Shown here one piece after another: positions 12,556 to 42,117 of a stretch of DNA of 64,000 nt; position 1 is the stretch's first letter; every line of letters begins with the position of its first letter. The notes below the pieces were generated by a model, which searched no databases, was not told the DNA's origin, and was given only the letters and a program-made list of their open reading frames with translations. A program made the translations under genes and the position numbers. Location: the NCBI GenBank assembly GCA_037976565.1, contig CP137667.1:26552277-26616276 (forward strand), written 5' to 3'. Source of the stretch: Mesocentrotus franciscanus (taxonomy: Eukaryota; Echinodermata; Echinoidea; Camarodonta; Strongylocentrotidae).

Positions 12556-13998
12556 TTTTATCTTAAAGGGCATCATATCTTCCGTTGTGGATCCTCTTGT
12601 TCATATTTTTAATTTGTCTTTATTACATGGCCAGGTACCCACCTCCATGAAAGTTGCAAAGGTCATTCCTTTGTTTAAAGGAGTGATAAATTAGATGTTA
12701 ATAATTATCGACCCATTTCTTTATTATCCTCCTTTTCGAAAATTCTTGAAAAGATAATTTATATTCGGACAGTATCCTTTTTTAAAAATCATAATACTTT
12801 TCTAATCTCCAATTTGGTTTTAGGGAAAAACATAACACTGTACACGCACTATTGTCTTTTATTGATAAGGTAGCTCATGCCATCGACAAATCTTCTCATA
12901 TGGTTGGCATTTTCCTGGACTTCTCCAAGGCTTTCGACACGATTAATCATGATATTTTACTTTATAAACTTTCACATTATGGTGTACGTGGGATGGCCTT
13001 GGAGTGGTTCAGAGCTACCTTTCGGATAGAAAGCAGTATGTATTTTTAAATGACAACTCCTCAGATCTTAGTAATATAAATTGTGGCGTTCCACAAGGTA
13101 GCATACTAGGCCCACTCTTATTTATTTTATATATAAATGACTTTTGTCGATCTTCTGATATTCTGTCTTTCGTACTTTTTGCTGATGACACAAATTTATT
13201 TTTTCTCACAAAGACTCCCATAGATTAGTTGAAATAATTAATATTGAAATGTGTAATATTTTATTGTGGATTAGAGCTAACAAATTATCATTGAATCTCC
13301 AGAAAACGAAGTATATGTTGTTTAGTAAATCTATAAATTCATTGCCAGCTAATTTAGTTTTGGATAATACCCCACTGGAGTGCGTTTCATTTAATACATT
13401 TTTAGGTGTAACGGTTGACAAAAAGCTTTCATGGAAAAATCACATCGACAATATTTGTAAAATTATTTCCCGAAATATCGGTATTATTTATAAATTAAAG
13501 ACATGTCTCCCTCTTAATTCATTAATTATGCTTTATAGTTCATTGATACTCCCATACTTAAATTATGGTCTCTTAGTTTGGGGTTACACATCAAACGTCA
13601 TTAGACAAAGTGTTTTATTACAAAGAAGATTATTCGTATAATTTGTAATTCCCCTTTCGCTTCCATACAGACTCTTTATTTTTGAAAATAAGATATTAAA
13701 GGTAAAAGACTTATATCTTTTCCAACTAGGTCAATTTATGTATAATTATAAAAATAATATGTTGCCTTCTGTTTTTCATGAAATGTTTTTTAAAATAGCT
13801 CAGTCCATAATTACCCAACAAGACATTCGGACGATTTTCATTTACCTCTCTTGCGGACCCTCTTAGCCCAAAAAACGTACATATATGAAGGTCCAAAGTT
13901 TTGGAATTCTTTAAGTGATGAAATAAAAAATGCTCCATCGATTAATACTTTTAAGAAAAAATTGAAATTGTTTTTATTACAATCATATCAACCTCATT
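12556..13998 (+). mobile_element. CR1/Jockey-type LINE, 3' half, frameshifted
   Basis: Reverse transcriptase motifs appear in order over three frames: a KVAKVIPLF block near 12650, YRPISLLSSFSKILEK near 12705, FLDFSKAFDTINHDIL near 12915, GVPQGSILGPLLF near 13090, FADDTNLF near 13175, LGVTVDKKLSWKNHI near 13410 and the SLILPYLNYGLLVWG block near 13545. It ends at a stop after LFLLQSYQPH near 13996. The start falls inside the RT domain, as in 5'-truncated LINE copies. At least three frameshifts are present, so it is inactive. Confidence 0.85.
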
Positions 13999-14171: not shown

Positions 14172-14671
14172 NNNNNNNNNNNNNNNNNNNNNNNNNNNNN
14201 NNNNNNNNNNNNNNNNNNNNNNNNNNNNNNNNNNNNNNNNNNNNNNNNNNNNNNNNNNNNNNNNNNNNNNNNNNNNNNNNNNNNNNNNNNNNNNNNNNNN
14301 NNNNNNNNNNNNNNNNNNNNNNNNNNNNNNNNNNNNNNNNNNNNNNNNNNNNNNNNNNNNNNNNNNNNNNNNNNNNNNNNNNNNNNNNNNNNNNNNNNNN
14401 NNNNNNNNNNNNNNNNNNNNNNNNNNNNNNNNNNNNNNNNNNNNNNNNNNNNNNNNNNNNNNNNNNNNNNNNNNNNNNNNNNNNNNNNNNNNNNNNNNNN
14501 NNNNNNNNNNNNNNNNNNNNNNNNNNNNNNNNNNNNNNNNNNNNNNNNNNNNNNNNNNNNNNNNNNNNNNNNNNNNNNNNNNNNNNNNNNNNNNNNNNNN
14601 NNNNNNNNNNNNNNNNNNNNNNNNNNNNNNNNNNNNNNNNNNNNNNNNNNNNNNNNNNNNNNNNNNNNNNN
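14172..14671. other. Assembly gap, 500 N
   Basis: Exactly 500 undetermined bases, a conventional gap length, so the true distance is unknown. Reading frames across it are meaningless. Confidence 0.99.
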
Positions 14672-14769
14672 ACCTGCCAACTGTTCCGATTTAATTGGAA
14701 TATTCTGATTTTCTGAATACTTACGATCATAAAATTAAGAATATTCAGAATTTTAAATTTTTATTTTAT

Positions 14770-15613
14770 TATGCCTCTGCTACAAAGTAGCCGGAGGCAT
14801 TGTGTTTTCTGGTTGTCCGTCAACCCTACGTCCCGTTCTCGTGATCGCGTTATCTCAAGAACCGATTGATGGATTCCGCCAAACTTGGGTCATGTATGTA
14901 TCTTGCAGAGCTAATGAACTGATTAGATATTTGAGTGACGAGGTCACAGGGCTCATTATGTATGCAAAAATAGCTTGTGATCGCGTTAATCTCAAGAACC
15001 GATTGATGGATTACCGCCAAACTTGGGTCATGTATGTATCTTGCAGAGCTAATGAACTGATTAGATTTTGGGGTCAAAGGTCACATGGCTCATTATGTAT
15101 GCAAAAATAGCTCGTGATCGCGTTATCTCAAGAACCAATTGATGGATTCCCGCCATACTTGGGGCATGTATGTATCTTGCAGAGCCAATGAACTGATTAG
15201 ATTTTGGGGTCACGAGGTTAAAGGTCAAAGGTCACAGGGCTCATTATGTATGCAAAAACAGCTTGTGATCACACTATCATTAGAACCGGTGGACGGATTA
15301 CCATCAAATTTAAAACATGTATGTATCTTGCAGAGCAAATGAACTGATTAAATTTAGGTCATGAGATCAAAGGTCAAGGTCATGGGGCTCATTATGTATG
15401 CATATAAATAACTTGGGAATGCATTATAATTAGAACCGACAGATGGATTACTATCAAACTCAGGACAGGAATTTATCTTGCAGAGCCATGTATATGAAAA
15501 ATAGCTTGTAATCACGATATTCTGAGAACCCGTTAATGGATTACTATCAAACTTGAATATTAAAAATTGCTTCCGTTTTGGTTTGTAAAATCGCTCTATG
15601 GCGGAGGCATCAT
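14770..15613. mobile_element. Non-autonomous element with ~125-bp tandem repeats
   Basis: The ends ATGCCTCTGCTACAAAG (14771) and, inverted, GATGCCTCCGCCATAGAG (about 15612) match. Between them are five to six head-to-tail copies of a ~125-bp unit containing GTGATCGCGTTATCTCAAG, ACTTGGGTCATGTATGTATC, AATGAACTGATTAGATTT and GGGCTCATTATGTATGC, more decayed to the right. A lone piece of the same unit lies at 17128-17210. No coding capacity is evident. Confidence 0.65.
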
Positions 15614-16884
15614 TTTCAACTGCGCGCAGTCGAAGTTCCATCTAGTTATTTTCTTTACCTGCATGGCGCGGCTGCCGATCCTCCTAGTCAGTCTCTGCAG
15701 ACTTCCTTCTTGCATTTCACTTTCTTTATTCTCCATTTTTCTTCTTCATTTTTCATTTAAGCAATCACTAATGTCTTTCCAGAAGCCAACCCCCCCCCCC
15801 ATTTGATCAAGTTCTCCAAGTCGCTTCGACAGTCCTCAGATTTTTGCTGGTTGAAAACCCATACATAAATTAAATGAGTCCTCAACTCAGGTTTTGAAAC
15901 ACCCCCTTATCACCCGCGCATTGATAACAACAAGAAAATTCTCTTTACACTATTTGACGATTTTCTGTCTAATTTCAGAAGCTTGTTATATCTTAATTGA
16001 TATTTACATGTACTCTTTTTATTAATGAATACTCATGCAACGGAATTCAGCTTCTTAATGAGGACTAATTTCTGTGCGGATTGTTATTAGGGGGACACTT
16101 CATCCGCGCTCGGCTGCACCATGGCACAAGACACTATGACCCCATTATCTTGTGATGACCGTGTTGCGGACACCCCAGTGCAGGCACGTTACTATGGGGG
16201 TTACTATGGGGGTCTGTCAATCTCTCCTTAATCCCTTCCAGCAATGATCTGGTTCTTGGCAGCCTCCCAAAAACTCCATCCAAGCAAAGAGCAAGGGGGT
16301 ATTTCAATTTTGCTACAAGGACTTTACGTCATGTCCACCCAGTGTCCCTTTTTATTGCATAATGAAGAAGCCAATTCTGACGTTAAAATTCCAAATGCCT
16401 ACATGCAGGTACGTTTCCATTAAATCTAATGTTAGACGCAATGTCCTGTTCATTCTAATATCTCTTATAATGTCCAATCACAGGTCCATGATGACAGAAC
16501 TGATATCTAGCAGCTGCAAAGTTACAATGTACAACAATCTACAAAGCTGGCATACTTCATTTGACTACTTTAGGCTGTCCTTAACCTTGATCCCATGTCA
16601 TCAGCTGTTCATGAGGTATTTTTGAAATTCTGTTATTCTCAATTGTAAAGGGGACTTGTAAGAAATTATAAAGCATTATGTTCAAAAATAGAAAGGAATG
16701 GAAAAGGCTTGATAAGAAGAAAGAAATTCTTTAGCTGTGATAAGTTCACATTGTCTTTCCACACCTTCATGATGTTTATTTCTTAATTGCTTGAAATGTC
16801 TTGTCTTTACAGTACTAAAGTGGAATTCCACCCTGATATTATGTTGGTTTTAATAATTAAAAGCATAAAAATTGGATAAATAAA
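15614..16884. other. No gene seen
   Basis: Non-coding sequence with a C run near 15790 and a local duplication, TTACTATGGGGG, near 16190-16210. An 87-codon frame at 16362-16625 shows no recognisable motif. Confidence 0.45.
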
Positions 16885-17020
16885 CAGGGCAGCGTTTCAT
16901 TAAACCTTCATAAGTACAAGTTCAGCGACATCCCATTGAAGCGTGTTAAACTTAATACACGCATTTCAATGGGATGTCGGTGAACTTGTACTTATGATGG
17001 TTTCGTGATACGCTGCCCTG
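16885..17020. mobile_element. Palindromic MITE, 136 bp
   Basis: CAGGGCAGCGTTTCAT at the left and ATACGCTGCCCTG at the right open a nearly perfect inverted repeat. It runs inward through AAGTACAAGTTCA and GACATCCCATTGAA to the middle near 16955. CAGGG-type ends suggest a hAT-related MITE. No 8-bp target duplication was recognised. Confidence 0.75.
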
Positions 17021-17576
17021 GTTCCCAATAGATATGGACCTTGTGGAAGAGTATAGCCCTATGCTAAACAAGTTATCCGATAAAATCTACTATACTACTA
17101 CTAAACTACTACTAAAAAGCATTTAAAGATGAACTGATTAGATTTTGGGTTCAGGAGGTCTAAGGTCAAATGCTGCAGGGTCATTAATTGAACAGAGGTG
17201 GAAGTTTATTGGAGACGCAGTTCTCCAAAACCCGTGGCTGATTTTAAATATGTGAACTCAATTGGAATCGTTCTTCGGGGGGCATGGGGGCAATTTCATC
17301 TCCGTTTCCTCTTTTTGAGTAACAAATTTTCATTCAGAGTTGAAAATTCAAAGTTGAAAAAGTAGAGATGTAGTTTTCCTAAATAGTCAACCACCACCAT
17401 ATAAAGAAAGTAATGAACCGTGGTCTAGATTTGTGTTTGTGAGTGTAAGTGTGTATATGCAGTGTACTGTTTCTTGTCACATGTACATGCAAACTGTACT
17501 GCAATCTCACCGCACAAAACAAAAAAGAAGAAAATATATGATATTTATGTTACTTTGTATGCTCTTATACATTTCA

Positions 17577-17995
17577 GAGTTCCGCAAGTGCTTTGAGACA
17601 GAGGTGTTCAGATTTTCTGGTCAGCGTGATGCCTTAACATTAAATCAGCTTTTGGATCATCAAGCTGGGTTGCATGTATCAGATGGTGATATTCAGGAGC
17701 AATCCTACCCATACATATCGTAAGTGATTAAGCAAATCTGTAACAATGAAGCGGAGTTTTAAAGGATCTTCATTCAGGTCAGCAGGGAACTACAATTACC
17801 TCAAGTACAGATAGATCAGAGGTTCTTGATACCAGCAAGTGATATAATCTTTTCATCGGAAATTGGGGAAGGCTCCTCAGCACGTGTTTTTCAGGGATTA
17901 TTAAAAAATCCCTGTGGCATTGAAAAGGTTTAAACTAGGGAAAACCATTCCAAAGTATCAGGAAATGCTTAAAAGAAGCTAACAACATCCTCAAA
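17577..17995 (+). pseudogene. Broken N-terminal part of the kinase-RecQ-MULE gene
   Basis: A coding stretch starts after an acceptor-like TTTCAG at 17576 (first residues EFRKCFETEVFRFSG) and runs to a TAA at 17721. The same frame resumes after a second TAA (17760) with a conserved-looking block, ELQLPQVQIDQRFL, and the glycine loop of a kinase, IGEGSSARVFQG, near 17862. A 66-nt intron (17720-17785, GTAAGT donor) would avoid both stops, but it would be very short, so true stops are equally possible. Two more breaks follow. The frame changes near 17926, just before the block FKLGKTIPKYQEMLKR that should carry the beta-3 lysine, and again near 17971, just before the alpha-C glutamate (KEANNILKLKHHN). 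These fit losses of about 5 and 2 nt. The true start codon is not visible. The extreme N-terminal block is not recognised. Confidence 0.6.
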
Positions 17996-20899
17996 TTGAA
18001 GCATCACAATGTTGTTGAATGCTTGGGTGTTTGTCTGCCAGAAATGACTATTATCCTGGAGTACTGCTGCAAATCACTGGATATCAATGGGGGAAATGTC
18101 ATTTGTCATACTGTTCGCCAAATGATAGATGCTATTGGACCCTCATTGCCTCAAGACCTATCGTCGGAAGCCTTGTACCAGATAACTGAAGGTATGAACT
18201 ACCTACATGAACAAAATGTGATCCATTGTGACTTAAAGTCCCAGAATGTACTTGTACGCTCCAGTGTGGATGATGAAAATGAGTGGCTGTTCAAGATATC
18301 AGACATGGGAGAGGCCCATATAGCCCTGGACACCACATACAGGTCTACGATATCTTGCACCCAAAGAGGGGCTGTAGGAACCATCCCATACCAGGCACCA
18401 GAATTACTCAATGGTAATCCAAAGTATACAAAGGCTGTTGATGTCTACTCATATGCGATGATCATGTATGAGTTAGCCCATGCAGATCAGCAGTATCCAT
18501 GGCAAAAAGATTGCGGTTCATCTGCAAGTCAAATCCGAGGTTTAGTCTCCAAAGGTGAGAGGCCAACAATGACTGACAGAATCCCTGTGTGGTATGCTGA
18601 CATGATGACACAGTGTTGGTGCCAAGAACCAGCAGGAAGACCCAGCTTTGAGGCTGTAAAACAAATGCTCATGTGTTTAGATGTTGAAAGTGAAAGCAGT
18701 GCATTATCAGCCCAAAACCTATCAAGAAGCCAGCCACCTGAAATGAAGCTGGTTCAGATCCAGAGCCAAAATGAAGGAGGAGCAATGTCAGGTGGCAGCA
18801 ACCAGTATTTTGTTGAAGATACCGAAATATTACTGGATGGAAGCCAGGATTTGTGTGGAAGGTTAGCTGAAGACCAGAGAGTAATGAGAGAACGAGAAGA
18901 GAAACTGGAAGTTCTACGTACTCTGACTCTCACTAGAAAAGCAAACACAGTACAAGGGACACCACAGAAGACACTAGAGCCTGACTTGGCTGAACCAACC
19001 GAAGAAATGCTCATGGCTTGGACAGGCTTTGCCCAGAAATACTTCAAAATATCACAGTTGCATGACTATCAAACCAAAGCAATAGCTTGTTGGAAAACGG
19101 GATTGGATTGTCTCATTGTGCAATCAACATCAAGTGGAAAGTCTGTGTGTTTCCAGCTGCCCGCTGCTATGGGCAAGGATGGGGACATGGTTGTTGTGGT
19201 GGTTCCAATCATTGCTCTTGCCAAAGATCAAGTGCAGTATCTCCAAGAACGTGGTGTTGAAGCAAAGCTGCTGGGAAGTGCTGCACAGAAGGGCACATTT
19301 ACTGATGTCTTTCTCAACAAACAACAACCAAAAATCCTATATGTGACACCCGAAACGCTTATGGGAGGAGAAGCTTACAAAGGTATTTTGGGAAGACTGC
19401 TAGAAGGTCACAATTCAGAGTTTAGGGTTACCCTATTTGCTGTAGATGAAGCTCATCTGATAACGGAATGGGGCGGCAGCTTTCGAGCATCATTCGACAG
19501 ACTCTCTGAATTGAAGCATCTTTTCCCAGACGTCCCAATGATGGCCCTCACGGCCACACTCCAACCCAAGGATGAAGAAATGATGCGAACAAGCATACTG
19601 CGTGAACCTCTTGTCTTGCGAGGAACAATTGATCGTGCTAATGTGTCCCTGCAGTTGTACAAATACAAGTGCCCAAAGCTGGAAGGGGATTGGACCGCTG
19701 TGGCAGAACAGATCAAAGATGTTGTTGGTGAGGAAAAGGCTATTGTGTACTGCTCTTTCGCCAAAACCTGTGACAGTGTATGTTCAGCACTACTGCATTG
19801 TGGCATGAAATCAGCTGCATACACAGGACATAACAGAACTGCAGAGGAGAAATCTACCATTCATGACAACATGGCTGCAGGGGATATTCAAGTACTGGTA
19901 GCCACACAAGCTTTTGGACTTGGAGTTAACATCAAGTGGATAAGATGGATCATTCACATTGGCTGCCCACAGAACATCCCCCAGTGGGTACAAGAATCTG
20001 GAAGAGCTGGCAGAGATGGAAAGCCAGCAAGTGCTGCCATATTCTTCTCAGAACATGCTGATCTTCAAAGACTGAAATTCTGGGTGAACGATGCCAAAGA
20101 TCATGCTGAGAAGAGCTTGAAGATCGAAGACTTCAAGAAAGTATGGCATTACATATATAGTGCAATGGCTGGGACTTGCCTACACCATCAGCAGAAGCTG
20201 TACTTCGGAGAAGATGATGAGCCGGTACAAGCACATGCTGAAAACGATGTCTGCTGTGACGGATGTACACTGAACAGTGGGAAGAAGTATGATGCCACTA
20301 CAGATGTGAAGGCAATAACAGAGGCCCTGCAAGAGCTTCATGATTTAGGTTTGAAGTGTGTGACGGAGAGAAAACTTGCAGACTGGCTAGAAGGCAAAGA
20401 GCAAGACTGGGTGAAGGACATGTCTAACAGAGACGTATTAGAAAAGTCTCCAACCTTTGGCAGCAAACAAAACTATCAGAGTACGCTGCATGTTGTGCTA
20501 AGGCAGGCAGTTGGACTGGACATTGTGTCTTTGGTCATCCTTATCACTAAGGTCAAAGGGCATTGGAACATTGTCACCAAATACTTTGCCTTCAGTGATG
20601 AGAACAAGTCGGCATTAAGTCACAGCAAAGCCTTGTTTCTCCCTCACCCGGAGGATGTTCAGAAGCACCTGACAAGAGTCACAGAGAAAGAAACATGTAA
20701 AAACCCTTGTAAAGAGAAGATCAAGAAGCAAGGCTACGGAATGAAGGGCAATCGCATTCTCATTCAGATCTTAGAAGATGGAGACTGGGAGCCCATCACG
20801 AAGAAAGAAAACTACATCAATGTGGGCTTTGATGGGGCCTTAACACCTTGCTATATGCAGAGGATTTCAGTAATCTCCCGGGATGCCCAGTTTCTCTGA
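17996..20899 (+). CDS. Protein kinase-RecQ helicase fusion (open frame, 967 codons)
   Basis: One uninterrupted frame joins two enzymes. Residues 1-230 are a protein kinase domain from alpha-C onward: catalytic loop IHCDLKSQNVL (D79, HCD in place of HRD), DMG at 103-105 in place of DFG, and GTIPYQAPELL at 129-138, as in tyrosine-kinase-like/LRRK-type Ser/Thr kinases. A linker with charged helix follows (about 230-340). Residues 345-760 are a RecQ-family SF2 helicase: Q motif LHDYQTKAI, Walker A STSSGKS (377-383), DEAH (484-487), motif III ALTAT, motif V around TQAFGLGVN, motif VI QESGRAGRDG (666-675), and a RecQ zinc site with C728, C753, C754 and C757. A winged-helix-like part follows (about 770-840). 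The first codon given is not a real start: the kinase N-lobe lies upstream in other frames. The 3' end runs into the zinc-domain frame. RecQ helicases unwind DNA with ATP; what the kinase acts on is unknown. I know of no standard host gene with this order. Confidence 0.85.
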   Translation: MKHHNVVECLGVCLPEMTIILEYCCKSLDINGGNVICHTVRQMIDAIGPSLPQDLSSEALYQITEGMNYLHEQNVIHCDLKSQNVLVRSSVDDENEWLFKISDMGEAHIALDTTYRSTISCTQRGAVGTIPYQAPELLNGNPKYTKAVDVYSYAMIMYELAHADQQYPWQKDCGSSASQIRGLVSKGERPTMTDRIPVWYADMMTQCWCQEPAGRPSFEAVKQMLMCLDVESESSALSAQNLSRSQPPEMKLVQIQSQNEGGAMSGGSNQYFVEDTEILLDGSQDLCGRLAEDQRVMREREEKLEVLRTLTLTRKANTVQGTPQKTLEPDLAEPTEEMLMAWTGFAQKYFKISQLHDYQTKAIACWKTGLDCLIVQSTSSGKSVCFQLPAAMGKDGDMVVVVVPIIALAKDQVQYLQERGVEAKLLGSAAQKGTFTDVFLNKQQPKILYVTPETLMGGEAYKGILGRLLEGHNSEFRVTLFAVDEAHLITEWGGSFRASFDRLSELKHLFPDVPMMALTATLQPKDEEMMRTSILREPLVLRGTIDRANVSLQLYKYKCPKLEGDWTAVAEQIKDVVGEEKAIVYCSFAKTCDSVCSALLHCGMKSAAYTGHNRTAEEKSTIHDNMAAGDIQVLVATQAFGLGVNIKWIRWIIHIGCPQNIPQWVQESGRAGRDGKPASAAIFFSEHADLQRLKFWVNDAKDHAEKSLKIEDFKKVWHYIYSAMAGTCLHHQQKLYFGEDDEPVQAHAENDVCCDGCTLNSGKKYDATTDVKAITEALQELHDLGLKCVTERKLADWLEGKEQDWVKDMSNRDVLEKSPTFGSKQNYQSTLHVVLRQAVGLDIVSLVILITKVKGHWNIVTKYFAFSDENKSALSHSKALFLPHPEDVQKHLTRVTEKETCKNPCKEKIKKQGYGMKGNRILIQILEDGDWEPITKKENYINVGFDGALTPCYMQRISVISRDAQFL

Positions 20900-21345
20900 A
20901 CAAGGAAGATTTCCTATGGAACGATGTTGCGATGGGAAAAGGGTCAGGCTTCCCTAAGAAGAAGCTGGATGTCGTGATAAGCGGAGAAACTACATCAGTC
21001 TTCATCAAGAAGAATCCCTGTTCTGGCGTCAAGAAGTGCAGTGGGGATGACTGTAGTTTCGCTACCAGCAAACGTCACAGAGAAAATAGATGTCTTCGTC
21101 ACCAAGATAGTCTACTTCAAGAAACAGGAAAATGCCCAGGAATCTTTGTTTATATTCGTCCCGCAGAGATTACAGATAAACGAAGATGGTTGGGATTCTT
21201 CTCAGACGGTGATGATGGGCACAATCACCCTTGTCCCGTTGGCACAAAACCAGGATCACAGCTGGAAGAAATGGTTGCTGTCTGTGTGAAGCGAGACCCT
21301 ACTAAAACACCTAGAGAACTTGCTAAAGGTTATGGCCTCCCTGCT
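20848..21345 (+). CDS. WRKY/GCM-like zinc DNA-binding domain of the same gene (shifted frame)
   Basis: This frame overlaps the end of the helicase frame and lies in the -1 register relative to it. It reads on smoothly from the helicase C-terminus (CYAEDFSNLPGCPVSLNKED). It contains cysteines in NPCSGVKKCSGDDC and NRCLRH, C in GKCPG, and ends with a DGHNHPCP motif. That Cys and His-x-His layout is typical of the WRKY-GCM1/FLYWCH zinc fold found in front of Mutator-like transposases. The frame returns to the register of the helicase near 21345, so the two indels compensate each other. The region probably belongs to one long protein and was broken by small indels, either in decay or in assembly. 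Confidence 0.6.
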
Positions 21346-22912
21346 TCCTGGTGCGATTTCTGCTGGCGCCAGCACTTCCTGCCTTGCAAAACTCCGATAC
21401 AAGTACCTCATAGACACTGGATCGGCTACGGCAATCAATCTGGTGAGGCAATTTGATGTGCTAATCAAGTCCCAGATTGATTCTTCAGATTCGTTACATC
21501 AGGTGGATGGGGACAAGGAAGTCGTCCAGCAATTAACTACACCATACCTCCGCTGGTGGAATGCATCTGACGACTTACTGGTTGCAGTGTTCATGACACC
21601 ACAAATGAGCCAGATCTTGGCACTGTCGACATTTGTTGAGGCAGACGTGACATTCCCAGGGTGCCAGGTGATGAAGTACATGTTGAATGTGGTCACTTTC
21701 AACGAGCTCACATTGAAGTGGCAGGTGGTGGCAAGGGCTTTGATGTCCAGGATGACTACAGCTGCCTACAAAGCGGCGTTTAACAAGATCCTAGATGTAG
21801 TCACTGAAGGCAATCCTGAATTCAAGAGAGGCCAGGAAACCTCTGCATGGGTTGTTGATTTCAGCGATGCCCAGTCTGCTGCCCTTGAAGACACTCTTGG
21901 GGAGACTGCACTGAAGGTTATTCGTGGATGCAAGGTTCACTACATTAGACTGTGCCACAGGATTGCTGATAAAGTTTGCTGTGGTGAAGAAGAACGCCAA
22001 CTGTTCCTACTCATATCTACAGCGATCCCTGATGTTAAGGAATCTGGAAGTGTAGACATCCTCTTTGATGCTCTCTGTGGTAAAATACCACCATCACAGT
22101 TACCTGAGGACGTTTTGCGACTTCAACCTTCCCAGAAACAGCTGAAGTGTGAAGGATGGAAGGCAGCAAAATCATGGGTTGCTTGGTGGAAGCGGCCGAG
22201 GCATACACGCATGCTGTGCACCAGCTTCAAAGACATGAATGACTCCATTTGGGAAATCAGTCCAAGCTCAACCAATGCAGTCGAGTCGAGGAACAAAGAG
22301 AGTAAACCACAGACTTGCTCCGTAAAGGCTACTCTTGAGCACATCTACCGTTGTGACAGGGCTGCGGCATACGAAGCTATTGCTGCTGAGCAGGGAATTG
22401 CTGTTGCTCCATCACAGTCAACAAGAATAAAACAGAGATCCTTGCAAAAACGTTGGAGGAGGAAAAGGGTAAAGCTGGTAGCCTCTGAAGCATCCATGGA
22501 CAACACAGAAACTGCTGATGGAGCGCAGGAAAATGTTGAACAAACAACTACATTGAAGAGGAAGCATGATGAGGAAGCTCAAACTGCTGTTGAAGCCCGG
22601 GGAAATGTTGAGCAAACAACTACATTAAAGAAAAAGCATGAAGAAGCTGGACCCAGCCGTACATCGTCCATGAGATCCCGCTCAAAAAGAACTTCAACGG
22701 AGCAACATACACCGTTACTAGACCAGTCCGTGATAGGTAAAAGTATCCTCCTAGATACCGAGGGGCATGGGGGGAAAAGGTACGGTTTCCAAGAGGCAAA
22801 GGTAGTTGCTATAGAAGGGAAGTTCTACAAGGCTCAATTTAAGAAGTGGCCTACACATTTTGCCTTTTTTGACGATATCGCATCAGATGATGTCACCATA
22901 CTGGACTCCTAA
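21346..22912 (+). CDS. MULE (Mutator-like) transposase core, C-terminal part of the same gene
   Basis: The open frame covers 21320-22912; the convincing coding part starts near 21346. Counting from 21320 (530 codons), likely catalytic residues are D109 in FVEADVTFPG, D180 or D183 in VVDFSDAQSAAL, and E322 in TNAVESRNK. A GCKVHYIRLCHR block (203-214) matches the C-x2-H signature between the second D and the E of Mutator-like transposases. A K/R-rich tail has two copies of an NVEQTTTLK repeat, followed by a C-terminal block (FQEAKVVAIEGKFYKAQF) that could be a small beta-barrel reader, though this is uncertain. Known MULE transposases cut and paste DNA by a DDE mechanism. The frame matches that of the kinase-helicase part, which supports a single ancestral gene. 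AATAAA overlaps the stop region. Confidence 0.7.
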
Positions 22913-23016
22913 ATAAAAAAGGCGATAACAGATACATTTTAAATTGTGCTTTGCTTCAGCTTGTCATCGTGTGAAACAGCCAAATCTTCACTTTAAGGGG
23001 TGGCAACAAAATAAAA
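22911..23016 (+). promoter_or_regulatory. Candidate polyadenylation signals
   Basis: AATAAA occurs directly after the stop codon of the MULE frame (about 22913) and again near 23009. Either could end the transcript of the kinase-RecQ-MULE gene. Confidence 0.4.
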
Positions 23017-23770
23017 TTTAATTCTTTGGTTTTATGATGAATCTTTTATGTTTCATAAATTTCACATGTAAGATCAAGCAAAAGCATTGATGACACGATT
23101 GGCAGTGTTGAGAGGAAAATTAGGAAGAGCAATATTTGTTTACACAAACATATCCAAAAAGAAATGATGCATGAGTTCGCATTTTTGCAAAAACTTGGTT
23201 AAAAAGGATATTTCAGATATTTAAAAGATCTTTGAAAATAAAAAGTCACTCAAAGGCATGTCGCAAGCTGTGGGGGGTCAGCTGTCATGAATTTTGTACA
23301 GGAGTGATAACAAATGCCCCCAGCAGTGGTAATTTGGTTAAGTGTACCAGAATTGACAGGGTTTATCAAAATGTGGATCAAATTGATAATTGATTTAGTC
23401 TTTATAGATGCACCAAGGAAATGGCATTTCCTCCTAATCCATGATCTTGACCAACACTGTATTAAACCTTTAAAATGTTTATATATATTATATAGCATGT
23501 ACATGTAAACCTTTAAAATGTGTATGTTTAATTTCACATGTAAAGCTTTACACTGTTCATGGGGCTCTCTATTTTGGTGAAGTTATGTGTTTTTTATTTG
23601 AAGGAAACCTTGCCTAGAGAACAATCAACCCTTTAACACATTTCATGTATAATGCAGACTTTTAAAATGTTAAAACAGCTCTCAGTTCTGGTGAAATTAA
23701 GTTGATTATGGGTATGAAAATCTTGCCCAAGGAACATACCTATTCCTTCAACATGTTAAATTTAATTATA

Positions 23771-23935
23771 GGGAAGGAGTGCATGGCTCAGTCTGTAGAG
23801 CAGCAGTCTCGTAACAGGAGGTCCAGGGTTTGAAACCAAATTGATGCACTGGATTCATCCTCATTACCAAGTCCCTCGGATAGGTCCCTGTGTGGCTTGT
23901 ACCTAGTCCTACAAGCCTTTAATTGATTTTTTTAA
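23771..23935 (+). mobile_element. tRNA-derived SINE or tRNA-like relic
   Basis: TGGCTCAGTCTGTAGAGC fits an A box and GGGTTTGAAACC a B box; the anticodon position reads CGT, pointing to tRNA-Thr. The anticodon stem does not pair and the T stem is poor, so it is not a working tRNA. The tail runs into GATTTTTTT. Confidence 0.6.
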
Positions 23936-24508
23936 CAGTAAGGTAAACTAATTCAACAATAATGTACTTTCAATATGGATATGCGGCTTTCAATTTTTCT
24001 GAAATTAATTTGGTCATGTGTGTTAAAATCTTGCCTAAAGAACAGATTCATATATTTAGCATATTTAATACATTATGTAGATCGACTCTAGAAAAAGTCT
24101 ATGCAGCTCTACATTTTGGTGAAATTTTCTGGTAAGCTTTCAATTATGTTGAAATTATCATGTGTGTGAAAAGAGAAACTACATAAAGAAGAACCAATTC
24201 ATTCTTGCAGAGTGTACAGTATCTGTGATACAAACTGCCATACTTACTTTTAAATGTATATATGTTAATATGTTCATTGATTAACATATTATGATGTTCA
24301 TGTCTTGAATAGCAAAATGTATTACAAAACAGTACCTCAAATATGTATTGTAAAAGATGTACCTTAAATAGTCATCTTTGCTCTTGTGTTATTATTAAAA
24401 CATGTTGATAATTTATACAGCTAGCTAAATGCAGAGAATTGCTTGTTATAGTTTATTCCAGTACAGGGTATATACAGTACTACATATCGTAAGCATATTC
24501 AGGTGTAA

Positions 24509-26232
24509 AAAGTACAGTTTCCAAGAGGCAAAGGTAGTTGCCATAGAAGGGAAGTTCAACGGCCTCAATTTAAGAAGTGGCCTACACATTTTGCCTTTTT
24601 GACGATATCGCATCAGATGATGTCACCATATTAGACTCAAAAAAAAAGGCGATAACAGATACATTTTAAATTGTGCTTTGCTTCAGCTTGTCATCGTGTG
24701 AAACAGCCAAATCTTCACTTTAAGGGGTGGCAACAAAATAAAATTTAATTCTTTGGTTTTATGATGAATCTTTTATGTTTCATAAATTTCACATGTAAGA
24801 TCAAGCAAAAGCATTGATGACACGATTGGCAGTGTTGAGAGGAAAATTAGGAAGAGCAATATTTATTTACACAAACACATCCAAAAAGAAATGATGCATG
24901 AGTTCGCATTTTTGCAAAAAACTTGGTTAAAAAAGGTTATTTCAGATATTTAAAAGATCTTTGAAAATAAAAAGTCACTCAAAGGCATGTCGCAAGCTGT
25001 GGGGGGTCAGCTGTCATGAATTTTGTACAGGAGTGATAACAAATGCCCCCAGCAGTGGTAATTTGGTTAAGTGTACCAGAATTGACAGGGTTTATCAAAA
25101 TGTGGATCAAATTGATAATTGATTTAGTCTTTATAGATGCACCAAGGAAATGGCATTTCCTCCTAATCCATGATCTTGACCAACACTGTATTAAACCTTT
25201 AAAATGTTTATATATATTATATAGCATGTACATGTAAACCTTTAAAATGTGTATGTTTAATTTCACATGTAAAGCTTTACACTGTTCATGGGGCTCTCTA
25301 TTTTGGTGAAGTTATGTGTTTTTATTTGAAGGAAACCTTGCCTAGAGAACAATCAACCCTTTAACACATTTCATGTATAATGCAGACTTTTAAAATGTTA
25401 AAACAGCTCTCAGTTCTGGTGAAATTAAGTTGATTATGGGTATGAAAATCTTGCCCAAGGAACATACCTATTCCTTCAACATGTTAAATTTAATTATAGG
25501 GAAGGAGTGCATGGCTCAGTCTGTAGAGCAGCAGTCTCGTAACAGGAGGTCCAGGGTTTGAAACCAAATTGATGCACTGGATTCATCCTCATTACCAAGT
25601 CCCTCGGATAGGTCCCTGTGTGGCTTGTACCTAGTCCTACAAGCCTTTAATTGATTTTTTTAACAGTAAGGTAAACTAATTCAACAATAATGTACTTTCA
25701 ATATGGATATGCGGCTTTCAATTTTTCTGAAATTAATTTGGTCATGTGTGTTAAAATCTTGCCTAAAGAACAGATTCATATATTTAGCATATTTAATACA
25801 TTATGTAGATCGACTCTAGAAAAAGTCTATGCAGCTCTACATTTTGGTGAAATTTTCTGGTAAGCTTTCAATTATGTTGAAATTATCATGTGTGTGAAAA
25901 GAGAAACTACATAAAGAAGAACCAATTCATTCTTGCAGAGTGTACAGTATCTGTGATACAAACTGCCATACTTACTTTTAAATGTATATATGTTAATATG
26001 TTCATTGATTAACATATTATGATGTTCATGTCTTGAATAGCAAAATGTATTACAAAACAGTACCTCAAATATGTATTGTAAAAGATGTACCTTAAATAGT
26101 CATCTTTGCTCTTGTGGTATTATTAAAACATGTTGATAATTTATACAGCTAGCCAAATGCAGAGAATTGCTTGTTATAGTTCATTCCGGTACAGGGTATA
26201 TATTACATATCGTAAGCATATTGAGGCGTAAA
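24509..26232 (+). repeat. Tandem duplication of gene end and 3' flank, copy 2
   Basis: Second copy of 22777-24508. It contains a dead copy of the last codons of the MULE frame (one T lost in the TTTTTTGACGAT run, stop region altered). A third, older and shorter copy of the tail of the unit lies at about 26327-26480. Confidence 0.95.
25499..25663 (+). mobile_element. tRNA-derived SINE or tRNA-like relic, second copy
   Basis: Same tRNA-Thr-like sequence as at 23771, carried along by the tandem duplication; no separate insertion. Confidence 0.6.
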
Positions 26233-26537
26233 GTCTGTTAAAACGACAAATTGTTAATATTTCATGTACATGTACATGTACTTTCATATCAGACATAATG
26301 TCGGTGTTTTTAGTGATATATGTTTTGCATGTATAAGCTTTTAATTATGTAAAAATTATCATGTGTGTAAAAAGATAAACTACATTAAGAAGAACCCACT
26401 TATTCTTGCAGAGTGTATCTATGATACATATTGCCATACTTGCAATTAAATGTATATATGTTAATGTTTCTTGAAACTGAAAAATTGTCTGCAGTGCTTG
26501 CTTCATTGCTGTATTAAGTAGAAATTTATTGAAAATA

Positions 26538-27907
26538 CAGTGCGTTTCAATAAAAAGGAAACCCATCTTTAAATATTAAGTATGGACAAACTATTTGTTT
26601 ACCGGCAATAGAATTAACATCATCTAAAAATAAAATAATTTGACTATTAAATGATACCTTGTTTAGGTTTCTAGAGTCACGTACTACTGAACCCCACTGT
26701 CTTAAACATTTGGTGCTAAATCGCAGTTGGTTCACTACCATTGGAGATCTCAATAGTCGAATTGCATGAATGCCTATATTGTCCAAGCTAATTGACATGA
26801 GCATTTTCATAACGGATAATGACATGCTTTTGTAAGATAGCTTAAATACTCACCATGTATCAATTTATGAATGCCCAGACAATCTTTCTGGCAAAAAAAG
26901 TAACCAAACATGATGTACCTAGCAACACAAAAAGTGTTTCATGAGCTCTTCCCAGACAAGGAATCTCCAGTAAAAAAAAAAAGACCAAAGTGTATATACC
27001 ACTGAACTGCAATTTCGCAAAATTAATTTCAGACAATAATATATAATTCAGTAGGGAAGTGACCCTTGAAACATAACCCAGGTACCATTGAAAAGCTAAT
27101 TATACTTTCATACTATATTAATCGTATTGCTCACAAACCAATACAGAGCTGCCAACCATTACGTTTTTCCTCCAAATTAGGGTAGTACGTTTTTTTCATC
27201 ATAAAATACGTCTTTTTGTAAATATTTTAAATATATATATATATATATATTTCTTACACATATCGCACGTCAAACAACTGCCTAAAATGTTGATTTGATC
27301 ACAAATTAAATATTCTCAAAAAGAATGAAACGCTGATAATACCAAAATAATAACAAAATAATACCTACTTGTAAATAAACTGTAGGTCCTAATATGGAAA
27401 AATCAGCATGAGGAATGGACATTCCTGCATTGGAAGTGTGTCGCGTGTGGTTGTAAGTTTAATTTTAATGAATTCCTTTTTTTTGTGCTTGAAATTCTTT
27501 TTTCTTTTTGGCCATCATGGTTCCTTTTTTTGGTCGCACAAGGTTGGCAGCTCTGCAAATAGTTCATCCAAATTGAGAATTAACCCTAATAAATTGATAG
27601 TTGCCTAACTCTGGAGGCACAAAAATCAAATAAGCACATCAGTGAAGGTTTGATAATTGTCTTTAGTATTTGAAAGATGACATCACCGATGATATAGGAA
27701 ATCTCTCCTTGGCAATGCAGTCACTGTGTGTGCATGTCATGCAGGGAGAACTCCCCCATACGGTGGGTACACAAAATATTCAAAATATCCCCCTTTTTAC
27801 ATTGATTTCTTATATGTTTCTCCAATTTTCTCCATTTATTAAAGCAAAATATCTCTGAAGGATTAATTCCCTTTAAAGTTGGGTTACCTTTTTATTAAAT
27901 CGCACTG
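26538..27907. mobile_element. TA-flanked inverted-repeat element, 1370 bp
   Basis: The ends CAGTGCGTTTCAATAAAAAG (left) and, reverse-complemented, CAGTGCGATTTAATAAAAAG (right) match, and the match goes on to GGTAACCC and CTTTAAA. TA flanks both sides (26536-26537 and 27908-27909), as in Tc1/mariner-like elements. No transposase frame remains, so it is non-autonomous. A second element (27144-27555) is inserted in it. Confidence 0.75.
27144..27555. mobile_element. hAT-type MITE nested in the TA element, 412 bp
   Basis: CAGAGCTGCCAACC at the left end is mirrored by GGTTGGCAGCTCTG at the right end. CAGAG-type ends are common for hAT MITEs. The 8-bp flanks do not match clearly. An (AT)n run lies inside near 27228-27250. 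Confidence 0.7.
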
Positions 27908-27954
27908 TAACACATGTAGAAAGATTAGATATGTCTGGATGCAATAAACATAAT

Positions 27955-28462
27955 ATTGGGTGGAAATTATGCCTCCCATGGAAAAAAAAGGGGGGATGAT
28001 GATGAGCACGAAAATGAGACGGGGTGATTAAGAGAGAGGTACAGGAAGAAAAGGTAGGTAGGGCGGGGGGTGAGAGAGAAAATATGAAATTTTAAGGCAA
28101 CCTATAAGATGAACTTAGAGGACGGGCATGTTCCTGATTCAAGGGAATTAATCCTTTGGGAGGAGACTATTGAAAATATGATCCTGTATCATAAACAAAT
28201 ATGTAGAAAGATTAGATGTGCCTGGGCGGCATTAATGTACAAAATACTGGGTGTAAAGTTTGTCTCCCATGGAAAAGGGTAGAGAGGGGATGATGGTGCA
28301 CATAATAATGAGAGGTGAAGGAAGAAAAGAGAGATAATAAATTGTAGGGGAGTGTGTTGATCAAGAGAGAACATTAATGTAATCGGATGTTCATCAAATA
28401 AAAAAAAGATGACTGACATGTCCCTGAATCAAGAGAATTAATCCTTTGGGAGGACATGGAAT
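27955..28462 (+). repeat. Degenerate direct duplication (two units of about 250 bp)
   Basis: 27915-28168 and 28200-28462 share the blocks GTAGAAAGATTAGAT, CTCCCATGGAAAA, a GA-rich middle and AGAATTAATCCTTTGGGAGGA-like sequence. The copies are old and carry many indels. Non-coding. Confidence 0.6.
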
Positions 28463-29181
28463 GAGGGGAATGTACCCCTAGCTCTCCAATATGAAGCATG
28501 TGCGTCAATCCGTACTCAACTGTGAGGGGGACACGACCGGCTGCTCGAAGAACTGACAAAACAAAATTGTCCGTCGTTTAAAAAAATAGGAAGAACCCCC
28601 CTGCCCCAACCCAGTATCCTTCATGGTCGCATACGAAAACAAAAAACTTAAAGAATTACCAAATAACAAAATGTCCCAATTTCTTTTGGGGTCAAAGTGT
28701 GGGGGGGGGGTTTGTGGGGGACATTACATACGATTATACCCCCCACATTTGGCTAAAAATTGAAAAAGAACAAGAAAAAACATTTTTTTCCTCATTTTCC
28801 CACTTTTGGCTCCAAAAATTACCTGTCCCCCACTCACGTCAAACCGTGGAGGGGGTAATTTAATATGATGTCCCCCCTTAAAAAAAAATAGTTGACGCTC
28901 ATGATAGGAAGTAGATGAAGTATTATTAGAGCACCTACTGGAAAGGCCTCAACCTAACAGGTGGAGGGAGGGGGGGGGGGTGATGGCCATAAAGAGGCCT
29001 TTAAATTTGTTTGGCCAAAACATCCTGTCCACGGGGGGATGGGAGGCGACATTATTTTAGGCCGGGGCGTAATCTTCAAGTTTGTAGGCCAGCGCCCCGC
29101 CCTAACAGATCGTGAATCCGCAACTACATACAAGGGAGCGAGCAGACGTGTACAAAATGAATAATATTGGGGCAGACATCG
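28463..29181. other. No gene seen
   Basis: Non-coding DNA with G runs (near 28700 and 28970) and C-rich stretches, ending at the satellite. A 67-codon frame at 28961-29164 is low-complexity at its start and shows no motif. Confidence 0.5.
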
Positions 29182-32100
29182 TAGCGATCTAACTCGCTAT
29201 TTGAATTCTACCACTACTATAGTAGGAGAGCCCCAACTGTAGCGATCTAACTCGCTATTTGAATTCTACCACTACTAATAGGAGAGCGCCAACTGTAGCG
29301 ATCTAACTCGCTATTTGAATTCTACCACTACTAATAGGAGAGCCCCAACTGTAGCGATCTAACTCGCTATTTGAATTCTACCACCACTATAGTAGGAGAG
29401 CCCCAACTTTAGCGATCTAACTCGCTATTTGAATTCTACCACTACTATAGTAGGAGAGCGCCAACTTTAGCGATCTAACTCGCTATTTGAATTCTACCAC
29501 TACTATAGTAGGAGAGCGCCAACTTTAGCGATCTAACTCGCTATTTGAATTCTACCACTACTATAGTAGGAGAGCCCCAACTGTAGCGATCTAACTCGCT
29601 ATTTGAATTCTACCACTACTATAGTAGGAGAGCCCCAACTTTAGCGATCTAACTCGCTATTTGAATTCTACCACTACTATAGTAGGAGAGCCCCAACTTT
29701 AGCGATCTAACTCGCTATTTGAATTCTACCACTACTATAGTAGGAGAGCCCCAACTTTAGCGATCTAACTCGCTATTTGAATTCTACCACTACTATAGTA
29801 GGAGAGCCCCAACTGTAGCGATCTAACTCGCTATTTGAATTCTACCACTACTATAGTAGGAGAGCCCCAACTTTAGCGATCTAACTCGCTATTTGAATTC
29901 TACCACTACTATAGTAGGAGAGCCCCAACTTTAGCGATCTAACTCGCTATTTGAATTCTACCACTACTATAGTAGGAGAGCCCCAACTTTAGCGATCTAA
30001 CTCGCTATTTGAATTCTACCACTACTATAGTAGGAGAGCCCCAACTTTAGCGATCTAACTCGCTATTTGAATTCTACCACTACTATAGTAGGAGAGCCCC
30101 AACTGTAGCGATCTAACTCGCTATTTGAATTCTACCACTACTATAGTAGGAGAGCCCCAACTGTAGCGATCTAACTCGCTATTTGAATTCTACCACTACT
30201 ATAGTAGGAGAGCCCCAACTTTAGCGATCTAACTCGCTATTTGAATTCTACCACTACTATAGTAGGAGAGCCCCAACTTTAGCGATCTAACTCGCTATTT
30301 GAATTCTACCACTACTATAGTAGGAGAGCGCCAACTTTAGCGATCTAACTCGCTATTTGAATTCTACCACTACTATAGTAGGAGAGCGCCAACTTTAGCG
30401 ATCTAACTCGCTATTTGAATTCTACCACTACTAATAGGAGAGCGCCAACTGTAGCGATCTAACTCGCTATTTGAATTCTACCACTACTAATAGGAGAGCC
30501 CCAACTGTAGCGATCTAACTCGCTATTTGAATTCTACCACTACTATAGTAGGAGAGCCCCAACTTTAGCGATCTAACTCGCTATTTGAATTCTACCACTA
30601 CTATAGTAGGAGAGCCCCAACTGTAGCGATCTAACTCGCTATTTGAATTCTACCACTACTATAGTAGGAGAGCCCCAACTGTAGCGATCTAACTCGCTAT
30701 TTGAATTCTACCACTACTATAGTAGGAGAGCCCCAACTGTAGCGATCTAACTCGCTATTTGAATTCTACCACTACTATAGTAGGAGAGCCCCAACTGTAG
30801 CGATCTAACTCGCTATTTGAATTCTACCACTACTATAGTAGGAGAGCCCCAACTTTAGCGATCTAACTCGCTATTTGAATTCTACCACTACTATAGTAGG
30901 AGAGCCCCAACTTTAGCGATCTAACTCGCTATTTGAATTCTACCACTACTATAGTAGGAGAGCCCCAACTTTAGCGATCTAACTCGCTATTTGAATTCTA
31001 CCACTACTATAGTAGGAGAGCCCAACTTTAGCGATCTAACTCGCTATTTGAATTCTACCACTACTATAGTAGGAGAGCCCCAACTTTAGCGATCTAACTC
31101 GCTATTTGAATTCTACCACTACTATAGTAGGAGAGCCCCAACTGTAGCGATCTAACTCGCTATTTGAATTCTACCACTACTATAGTAGGAGAGCCCCAAC
31201 TGTAGCGATCTAACTCGCTATTTGAATTCTACCACTACTATAGTAGGAGAGCCCCAACTGTAGCGATCTAACTCGCTATTTGAATTCTACCACTACTATA
31301 GTAGGAGAGCCCCAACTTTAGCGATCTAACTCGCTATTTGAATTCTACCACTACTATAGTAGGAGAGCCCAACTTTAGCGATCTAACTCGCTATTTGAAT
31401 TCTACCACTACTATAGTAGGAGAGCCCCAACTTTAGCGATCTAACTCGCTATTTGAATTCTACCACTACATAGTAGGAGAGCCCCAACCTTAGCGATCTA
31501 ACTCGCTATTTGAATTCTACCACTACTATAGTAGGAGAGCCCCAACTTTAGCGATCTAACTCGCTATTTGAATTCTACCACTACTATAGTAGGAGAGCCC
31601 AACTTTAGCGATCTAACTCGCTATTTGAATTCTACCACTACTATAGTAGGAGAGCCCCAACTTTAGCGATCTAACTCGCTATTTGAATTCTACCACTACT
31701 ATAGTAGGAGAGCCCCAACTTTAGCGATCTAACTCGCTATTTGAATTCTACCACTACTATAGTAGGAGAGCCCCAACTTTAGCGATCTAACTCGCTATTT
31801 GAATTCTACCACTACTAATAGGAGAGCCCCAACTTTAGCGATCTAACTCGCTATTTGAATTCTACCACTACTAATAGGAGAGCGCCAACTTTAGCGATCT
31901 AACTCGCTATTTGAATTCTACCACTACTATAGTAGGAGAGCGCCAACTGTAGCGATCTAACTCGCTATTTGAATTCTACCACTACTATAGTAGGAGAGCG
32001 CCAACTTTAGCGATCTAACTCGCTATTTGAATTCTACCACTACTATAGTAGGAGAGCGCCAACTTTAGCGATCTAACTCGCTATTTGAATTCTACCACTA

Positions 32101-32660
32101 CTATAGTAGGAGAGCGCCAACTTTAGCGATCTAACTCGCTATTTGAATTCTACCACTACTATAGTAGGAGAGCGCCAACTTTAGCGATCTAACTCGCTAT
32201 TTGAATTCTACCACTACTATAGTAGGAGAGCCCCAATTGTAGCGATCTAACTCGCTATTTGAATTCTACCACTACTAATAGGAGAGCGCCAACTGTAGCG
32301 ATCTAACTCGCTATTTGAATTCTACCACTACTAATAGGAGAGCCCCAACTGTAGCGATCTAACTCGCTATTTGAATTCTACCACTACTAATAGGAGAGCG
32401 CCAACTTTAGCGATCTAACTCGCTATTTGAATTCTACCACTACTATAGTAGGAGAGCGCCAACTGTAGCGATCTAACTCGCTATTTGAATTCTACCACTA
32501 CTAATAGGCTAGAGCACCAACTTTAGCGATCTAACTCGCTATTTGAATTCTACCACTACTATAGTAGGAGAGCCCTAACTGTAGCGATCTAACTCGCTAT
32601 TTGAATTCTACCACTACTAATAGGAGAGCACCAACTGTAGCGATCTAACTCGCTATTACA
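29182..32660 (+). repeat. 58-bp satellite array, about 60 copies
   Basis: Head-to-tail copies of a 58-bp unit. Each contains TAGCGATCTAACTCGCTA (TAGCGA and TCGCTA pair), a GAATTC site and CTACTATAGTAG, a perfect 12-bp palindrome. Copies are nearly identical. Recurrent variants are a 3-bp shorter unit with CTACTAATAGG, CCCC/CGCC, and TTT/TGT before TAGCGA. Variants are clustered (the CGCC and short forms near both ends of the array and around 30300-30500), as expected from block-wise amplification. Confidence 0.98.
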
Positions 32661-33275
32661 GAAATCGCTACTATATTGATGTTGGTAAGAGTATGTACTA
32701 GTAGGAGAGCGCCAACTGTAGCGATCTAACTCGCTATTTGAATTTCGCTCTTATATATAGGAGAGCGCATCAGCCGTAGCGATCTAACTCGCTATTTGAA
32801 TTCAAACACTACTAGTAGGAGAGCGCCAACTATAGCGATCTAACTCGCTATTACAGAAATCGCTACTATATAGATGTTGGTTATAGTATGTATTAGTAGG
32901 AGAGCGCCAACTTTAGCGATCTAACTCGCTATTTGAATTTCGCTCTTATATATAGGAGAGCGCGTCAGCCGTAGCGATCTAACTCGCTATTTGAATTCAA
33001 ACACTATTAGTAGGAGAGCGCCAACTATAGCGATCTAACTCGCTATTACAGAAATCGCTACTATATAGATGTTGATAAGAGTATGTACTAGTAGGAGAGC
33101 GCCAACTGTAGCGATCTAACTCGCTATTTGAATTTCGCTCTTATATATAGGAGAGCGCAGCAGCCGTAGCGATCTAACTCGCTATTGTAAATGTCGCTAC
33201 TATATAGTTTGTAATAGGAGTTTGTCGCAACAAATTTCTGCTCTTATATATGAGAGCACAAAATCGCTACGTTTG
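32661..33275 (+). repeat. Composite higher-order repeat at the satellite edge
   Basis: Here the TAGCGATCTAACTCGCTA core is joined to other blocks: CAGAAATCGCTACTATAT, GTATGTACTAGTAGGAG, and TTTCGCTCTTATATATAGG, in which CGCTCT pairs with AGAGCG. Together they form a unit of roughly 180-190 bp repeated about three times. The last copies decay to GAGAGCACAAAATCGCTACG near 33265. Confidence 0.85.
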
Positions 33276-34432
33276 CGAGAGAGTAAAGTCCCGATAACTA
33301 ACCGAAAGAGAAGATGCCTATTCTCTCGATAAATTTTAATTGCCTGAATACCGTTGTCATTATCCAATATAATTATAAATTCCCTCTCTCGAAATAGTAT
33401 GTAAATACTGTACGTAAACTATACATCTACCTCTTCCATTGTGTAATCGTATCTCTTAGATATTTACTGAAAGCCAGTCATATGATATCATAATGTATAA
33501 TTTGAAAAGTGGTAAAATAATGATAAACTTCTTATTAGTGTTAATTCCCTCATGCTGTTATTCACAAAGTATTTTTTTAAATGTTTGTGCTCATATTTCT
33601 TGACTTATATTGTGATAATTTTGTATCTTTTCAGATTTCACGTGTCGTCCTGTAAAGTTATTGGTATTATTATTTTGTTTTCATTTTTTAATATCATTTT
33701 ACTCTTCGTATGGATGTTACATTAAACTTGCTTAGTACATCAAATACAAATTTTTAAAAATCCGAAGTGGACCATGGTGTGACATTCCATTAAAATTTCC
33801 GTCGTATTCACTTTGCACCCTGGCTTAAAAGCCATTAAAGTGAATGCTCTGTGAACTGATATTATGAAAGATTAGTTTGCTATGGTGTAAAGAAGAGCTA
33901 TGTATCAACACAAAATAGGCCCAGTTTAACCGTCGAAAGTTCTGTTTCTTGACTAAACATCCGAAGTAATGTAAGAATATTATGATATCTTTGTTAACGT
34001 TTACTGCATTTCTGTTATAATTGGTAATGTCACTTTTTGCACATTTCATGTGAAGTCGGCACTTTTTCTTTCCTTAATTATTACCGCTTCAATTAAATTC
34101 ATTTAAGTTAAATTATATTAAATTAAATTCAATCATACAGATATTCTGATAACCACACACGGTGATTGGTCTGAAAACCAATCCGGATCTTACATTTTTG
34201 TTTTCATTTTTTGTGTCATGATAATGTACCTACAACTTCCTCCTTGGTGCATAGGTATAATTGAGATACCCTAATGTGATCGACCAAACTCGAGGACAAT
34301 GTTCAGCTTGACAATTTTTTCGTATGGTCTAAGTAACTTGGTCCGGTCAATTCTTATGGGAAAAATGGGGCGACTATTTCGGGACAGACTACTGACCCCT
34401 GTACTGTTTTGTACAAAGTTTTGTTAAGTACC

Positions 34433-42013: not shown

Positions 42014-42117
42014 GTAAGGGGTTCATTTGAAATTACTTGCGTTTGGCCAAGGCCTGACAAGTTACCCATACAATTCAGATAAGGGAAGGTACACATAGGT
42101 GCCGTAAATGGGGAGGG

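Follow-up and report, generated by a model that had tools for sequence, protein, structure and literature searches.

Foldback elements form hairpins, which are difficult to replicate. Among sea urchins, the TU elements of Strongylocentrotus purpuratus have long inverted ends made of tandem repeats, as does the element that we describe here, but by description they are set apart: their repeat unit is ~15 bp and their target duplications are 8 bp long, as against 58 bp and 9 bp here. Mutator-like elements (the MULE/MuDR superfamily, including Phantom and Rehavkus) encode a DDE transposase with a CxxH motif and a zinc-type N-terminal piece, make 9-bp target duplications and have long inverted ends, all of which are common to them and to the present element; Rehavkus and some Phantom elements are also listed with minisatellites (PMC6446971). 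The words “helicase”, “RecQ” and “kinase” are absent from the main text of that survey. MULE/MuDR elements as described there are without a helicase or kinase, whereas the present element, at ~48.5 kb, appears to fuse both to its transposase.

The root-knot nematode element Tm1, a Mutator/Foldback element, resembles ours in its composite inverted ends with tandem repeats, in its duplications of 8–10 bp, mostly 9 bp, and in having both short gene-free forms and forms with a MULE-like transposase; its internal repeat is ~14 bp rather than 58 bp, and neither “helicase” nor “kinase” occurs in the available text of its description (PMC3169594). A RecQ helicase is encoded by KolobokH, a DDD/E transposon, but KolobokH is fungal, its RecQ gene lies downstream of the transposase and its duplications are the 4-bp TTAA, whereas here RecQ is upstream and the duplications are 9 bp long and mixed in sequence (PMC9587614). 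AcademH is also a DNA transposon that encodes a helicase, of the DEAD/Helicase_C type; a kinase, which the present element has, is not mentioned in the available text (PMC10799480). Fungal IS3EU, likewise a DNA transposon of eukaryotes, does carry a kinase, but this is an alpha-kinase encoded by a separate gene in the opposite orientation, whereas here a TKL-like kinase is fused before RecQ (PMC12730594).

As far as the available texts of these sources go, helicase-bearing transposons (KolobokH, AcademH), kinase-bearing transposons (fungal IS3EU) and foldback MULEs (Tm1, Rehavkus) are already known. What appears to be new is the combination of a kinase and a RecQ helicase with a MULE-type transposase in one gene, of which we found no description. 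The literature that we searched contains no MULE with a RecQ helicase or a kinase; most subscription papers and Repbase lie outside that scope and may list the family. We consider it very probable that the locus is a giant Mutator-like DNA transposon of the foldback type, with a single kinase-RecQ-zinc-DDE transposase gene. The sequence itself shows the inverted terminal 58-bp arrays, the precise ends, the 9-bp duplications around short relatives with the same ends and a domain order that runs in one direction.

A gene for a kinase, a RecQ helicase and a transposase

The features of the window, by which we mean the whole 64,000-nucleotide stretch of Mesocentrotus franciscanus DNA that was analysed, are collected in the table. 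Three further copies were used for comparison: C2up, which is 46 kb upstream of the window copy and 99.4% identical to it over 9.9 kb, C7, and a decayed copy, C9.

Features of the element in the window
Feature	Position	Strand	Basis or remark
Assembly gap, 500 N	14172..14671	.	Sequence; hides left part of window copy
Visible transposon part, at least 18.6 kb	14672..33292	+	Copy comparison
Five to six imperfect repeat copies within element, spaced 93–151 bases	14838..15579	+	Repeat families D4, D8
Possible upstream exon	17577..17720	+	AG and GT-type signals, by eye; without homology support
Protein kinase domain, TKL-like	17805..18673	+	Main frame except for N-lobe, which is in two others
RecQ helicase	19064..20527	+	Pfam domains and motifs TSSGKS, DEAH, TAT, QESGRAGRDG
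DEAD	19064..19573	+	Pfam, over cut-off
Helicase_C	19727..20020	+	Pfam, over cut-off
RecQ zinc-binding	20057..20266	+	Pfam, below cut-off
RQC	20282..20527	+	Pfam, below cut-off
Zinc-type piece	20833..21340	+	Conserved Cys and HNHP, by eye; shifted frame here, in frame in C7
MULE-type DDE transposase (best assignment)	21335..22912	+	D, D, CxxH, E motifs; conserved C-terminal domain
1.73-kb tandem duplication	22770..26232	+	Repeats gene 3ʹ end/last codons and following DNA
Minisatellite array at right end, main unit 58 bp	29182..33206	+	Repeat analysis
Right terminus	33190..33292	+	Copy comparison and genome matches

The kinase and the RecQ helicase both lie inside one stop-free frame on the forward strand, 17939–20896. 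An earlier note on this DNA had rightly described this frame as lacking stops, but its length is 986 codons rather than the 967 given there. In the list of open reading frames for the window, the zinc-type piece falls in frame 20833–21453 and the transposase in frame 21290–22909, coordinates that agree with the same note's view that the kinase-helicase and MULE frames share a register from which the zinc piece is shifted. Comparison with a Lytechinus protein placed the kinase N-lobe ahead of the main frame, divided between two others (17805–17985), and the window copy of the gene is frame-broken. The parts of the gene lie within 17577..22912, as first proposed, but the feature itself is far larger, with its right end at 33292. 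The 1.73-kb tandem duplication is also visible in the C2up and C7 comparisons.

Frame 17939–20896 matched the Pfam families for protein kinase (PF07714, E 6.8e-35), DEAD (E 1.7e-21) and Helicase_C (E 2.1e-16) above their curated cut-offs; the matches to RecQ_Zn_bind (E 1.5e-4) and RQC (E 0.027) were under the cut-offs. By sequence the helicase is nearest to Bloom/RecQ helicases, and its RecQ part matched the Bloom helicase with an E-value of 8.4e-57. The DEAD and Helicase_C domains and the RecQ motifs, with RecQ/BLM proteins as the closest relatives, argue for membership of the RecQ family. The kinase is nearest, among the solved structures listed, to MAP3K12, MAP3K9 and RIPK1. In the window and its relatives the kinase motifs are GEGS, VALK, HCDLKSQN, DVG or DMG, and APEL. 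The catalytic residues are present, and the kinase is probably, but not surely, active, because the Arg of HRD is replaced by Cys and the Phe of DFG by Val or Met.

What kind of transposase follows the helicase? D, D, CxxH and E motifs, with CxxH between the second D and E, are found both in the window and in P0001, a relative on a separate contig that consists of the zinc piece and the transposase and shares 50% identity with the window across 96% of the query. A Pfam search found no family match for the transposase of the window copy or of C7; P0001 matched the MULE family PF10551 under the threshold (E 2.5e-4; 21.9 bits, with the cut-off at 27.6). A profile alignment of the transposase family with five other MULE frames of the genome placed motif on motif, with a probability of 24% and an E-value of 8.4e-4 (E 0.72 for a RecQ control). 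The zinc-transposase profile matched no PDB chain in a sequence-based search, and the zinc piece had no Pfam WRKY-GCM1 or FLYWCH match in the window, P0001 or C7. Since the profile alignment and the motifs go together with the 9-bp duplications described below, MULE is the best assignment, one that draws on the motifs, the target duplications, the sub-threshold Pfam match and the weak profile alignment.

Two other assignments were tried. Kolobok is ruled out by 9-bp duplications of mixed sequence, as against 4-bp TTAA, and for a viral origin, viral contigs scanned with the zinc-transposase alignment gave 31 pattern matches, no relative among them. The transposase of AcademH belongs to a superfamily different from MULE. 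Further MULE-domain matches in the genome number 57 or more. Another MULE family in it is represented by 16 copies with equal PF10551 scores on several chromosomes (for example, L001–L008).

Ends, size and target duplications

The window copy, C2up and C7 agree up to ...AGTAAAGTCCC, which ends at window position 33292, and their flanks then differ. This common end point within dissimilar flanks is the ground on which a simple duplication of a host gene is rejected. The right-end array contains 60 copies of the 58-bp unit in the window. In C2up the array recurs in inverted orientation 30–40 kb further left, with 121 copies in one stretch, and the outer left end (26490685) aligns to the inverted right end over 139 bases. 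C2up thus spans ~48.5 kb (C2:26490685–26539190), ungapped, between inverted 58-bp minisatellite arrays. A first search, confined to the 7 kb around the gene, had missed the inverted left end because it sits 30 kb away. Hence the ends are inverted and consist of tandem repeats, as in foldback elements. The terminal inverted repeats were seen in one gene-bearing copy, C2up, and the ends also pair in 20 short elements.

These ends are widespread in the genome. The last 105 bases of the right end gave at least 41 matches, and among the matches listed 40 stop at query positions 100–105; a 110-base query from the left end gave at least 42. Some places appear in both lists because the ends are inverted repeats. 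Two short copies that we read through are pure foldbacks, with the terminal repeats back to back and no match to the interior of the element.

By eye we selected from these matches 22 pairs of left and right ends that lie on the same strand and span ~1 to 7 kb, and we examined the junctions of 20 of them. Direct repeats were present at both junctions of 13 of the 20 pairs, compared with 1 of 380 mismatched pairs at equal score. Eleven of the 13 are, by eye, exact 9-mers that abut the GGG and CCC ends, and the other two are offset by one base; the remaining 7 pairs have no duplication at their junctions. For the gene-bearing copies the picture varies. In C7, GAAATACATA occurs after the right end and again immediately before an assembly gap, a 10-base repeat of the right flank, and the repeat GAAATACAT(A) is likely to be a 9–10 bp target duplication. 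The ends of C2up have an imperfect, A-rich repeat only, and the window copy, whose left end is in the gap, shows no exact repeat as long as 9 bases. Clean 9-bp duplications were therefore seen around short relatives and at no full-length gene-bearing copy, and it is on the short relatives that the 8–11 bp duplications expected of a MULE are found.

The earlier note had suggested a search for terminal inverted repeats and for such duplications, and both came to light, in the 139-base alignment of the C2up ends and in the 13 short pairs. It had offered two readings of the locus. That of a large DNA transposon is supported by the shared terminus, the inverted arrays and the target duplications; that of a host gene that had captured a transposase is disfavoured by the shared termini and the several insertions.

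Other repeats and genes share the window. A 45-base inverted repeat (960–1004 and 6194–6238; 98% complementary, arms 5.2 kb apart) may mark the ends of another element, and nested inverted repeats at 11478–12196, with 114-base arms that are 97% identical, resemble a short foldback or MITE. By eye, there are LINE-type reverse-transcriptase-like pieces at 4368–4832 (-), 13189–13641 (+) and 60539–61144 (-). Downstream of the element lie two similar sets of TRIM-like RING/B-box frames with matching C-terminal frames, also identified by eye (41429–42082, 47198–48346, 53620–54303 and 62072–63331).

Copies and relatives

A search of the species' own assembly (773 Mb, 21 contigs) with the transposase part gave 10 matches, all at four loci: the window, C2up, C7 and C9. 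These are the only loci of the gene. The kinase-RecQ part gave 42 matches, which are close at the same four loci; those elsewhere are shorter and at most 44% identical, as expected of host kinases and helicases. The kinase-RecQ join itself occurs in only two copies in this genome, the window and C2up, which are 99.4% identical. In C7 the kinase region falls in an assembly gap. In C9 similarity starts at residue 250, immediately past the kinase, and no kinase was found in the preceding 8 kb. Open frames that by eye resemble a DIRS-type tyrosine recombinase (C9:13281019–13282095) lie a few kb ahead of the C9 copy.

Among the three young copies not one substitution was seen over the codons compared (843, 845 and 985), which leaves dN/dS undefined. 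The two comparisons with the decayed C9 copy each gave a dN/dS of 0.51, over 643 and 531 codons and with 8 and 3 stop codons left out, but do not amount to a clean test. Within the gene, the young copies differ almost only by several short length changes at differing places, and these may be real decay or assembly errors. Every copy examined has a broken frame somewhere.

In C7 the RecQ tail, the zinc piece and the transposase form a single open frame of 848 residues, and P0002, on a 4599-base contig, runs from the RecQ tail across the zinc piece into the beginning of the transposase. The one-gene order of the earlier note is borne out by these two sequences, by C7 in full over this part and by P0002 through the transposase start.

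The front of the gene recurs in another sea urchin. P0003 of Lytechinus pictus (1470 aa) runs from the kinase through a long linker and RecQ into the zinc region, of which it has a part, and its gene model stops before the transposase. P0004 (kinase and DEAD) and P0005 (C-terminal part of the helicase and zinc region) are each listed with a 10,711-base ENA contig, on which P0004 is a plain open frame. In P0051 the C-terminal part of the transposase is joined to a RecQ. Hence there are at least three Lytechinus gene models: P0003, P0051 and, if the host is the same, P0004/P0005. Kinase and helicase domains occur together in two (P0003 and P0004) among the best 120 of the 316 proteins found. A search with residues 700–960 as the query gave no relatives among 1185 candidates, a negative that reflects the word filter of the search, since P0003 was later found with residues 1–700.

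The identity of P0003 to the window is 52% over the kinase and 57% over the RecQ ATPase, lower in the RecQ-Zn/RQC part (44%) and the linker (29%), and lowest (27%) in the tail, which aligns poorly. Between P0003 and P0004 identity reaches 94% for the kinase and 97% for DEAD; the linker, where 96 residues are gapped, has 89%. This pattern agrees with a constrained kinase, although it is not a selection test. Because the kinase-RecQ-zinc order recurs in L. pictus, the kinase-RecQ junction is not a local accident. A junction unique to this locus, the outcome that was to have counted against the one-gene reading, did not occur: the order is present in P0003 and in P0004/P0005.

Alternative explanations and possible function

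An alternative explanation is that the gene is passive cargo, a host or dead-transposon gene caught between two foldback elements that are moved by another MULE. There is no shortage of other MULE-domain matches in the genome (the 57 or more noted above, the family of 16 equal-scoring copies among them). Furthermore, the element is huge, most of the sequenced short copies are gene-free (two were read), and the interior of C2up to the left of the gene shows no long open frame. However, the supposed cargo codes for a DDE transposase, and one of the class that 9-bp duplications would lead one to expect, gene and terminus are found together in three copies, and the gene order is kept in Lytechinus. 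We therefore regard cargo as unlikely.

Less probable still is a domesticated host gene, in which a former transposase now serves as a host kinase-helicase and has been duplicated with its surroundings. Such a gene could have the low copy number that we observe (four loci) and the possible introns that were noted by eye, but its copies would not be expected to stop at one base within unrelated flanks on two chromosomes, to have ends in common with dozens of short elements that are bordered by target duplications, to have frames broken somewhere in all copies examined, or to be represented by at least three gene models in Lytechinus (P0003, P0051 and P0004/P0005 if from the same host). The least credible alternative, that the kinase is part of an adjacent gene and that only a lost stop or the gene prediction has joined it to RecQ, agrees with the lack of a kinase in the 8 kb upstream of C9 but not with the single uninterrupted frame in the window or with the same join, through a long variable linker, in P0003 and in the plain open frame of P0004.

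How might a foldback MULE with such a gene move? We propose that the gene yields one protein or precursor. The zinc piece and the transposase would recognise and bind the 58-bp terminal units, and the DDE domain would cut and paste the element as well as, in trans, its short foldback derivatives. The cut would fall at the GGG...CCC ends, with joining at a 9-bp stagger. The RecQ part could open the hairpin-forming ends, or aid the repair or copying of the large donor gap, and the kinase could phosphorylate the transposase itself or host repair proteins and so time the reaction.

More tentatively, the element may represent a distinct sea urchin lineage of giant foldback MULEs with its own RecQ helicase and active kinase. 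The helicase would resolve the hairpins of the minisatellite ends and fill the large donor gaps, and the kinase would direct or silence the host DNA-damage response, keeping a cut-and-paste element of ~50 kb mobile. Such a lineage, a possibility that we rate at somewhat worse than even, may be the long-sought mover of sea urchin foldback elements.

Cut-and-paste transposons become less efficient with growing size (PMC6431247). With a helicase and a kinase fused to it, a transposase would have a direct means against both this loss and the hairpins, and the element would be a rare example of a transposon that carries its own signalling enzyme. With gene-bearing and gene-free foldback forms in a single family, the question of what moves such foldbacks would become testable.
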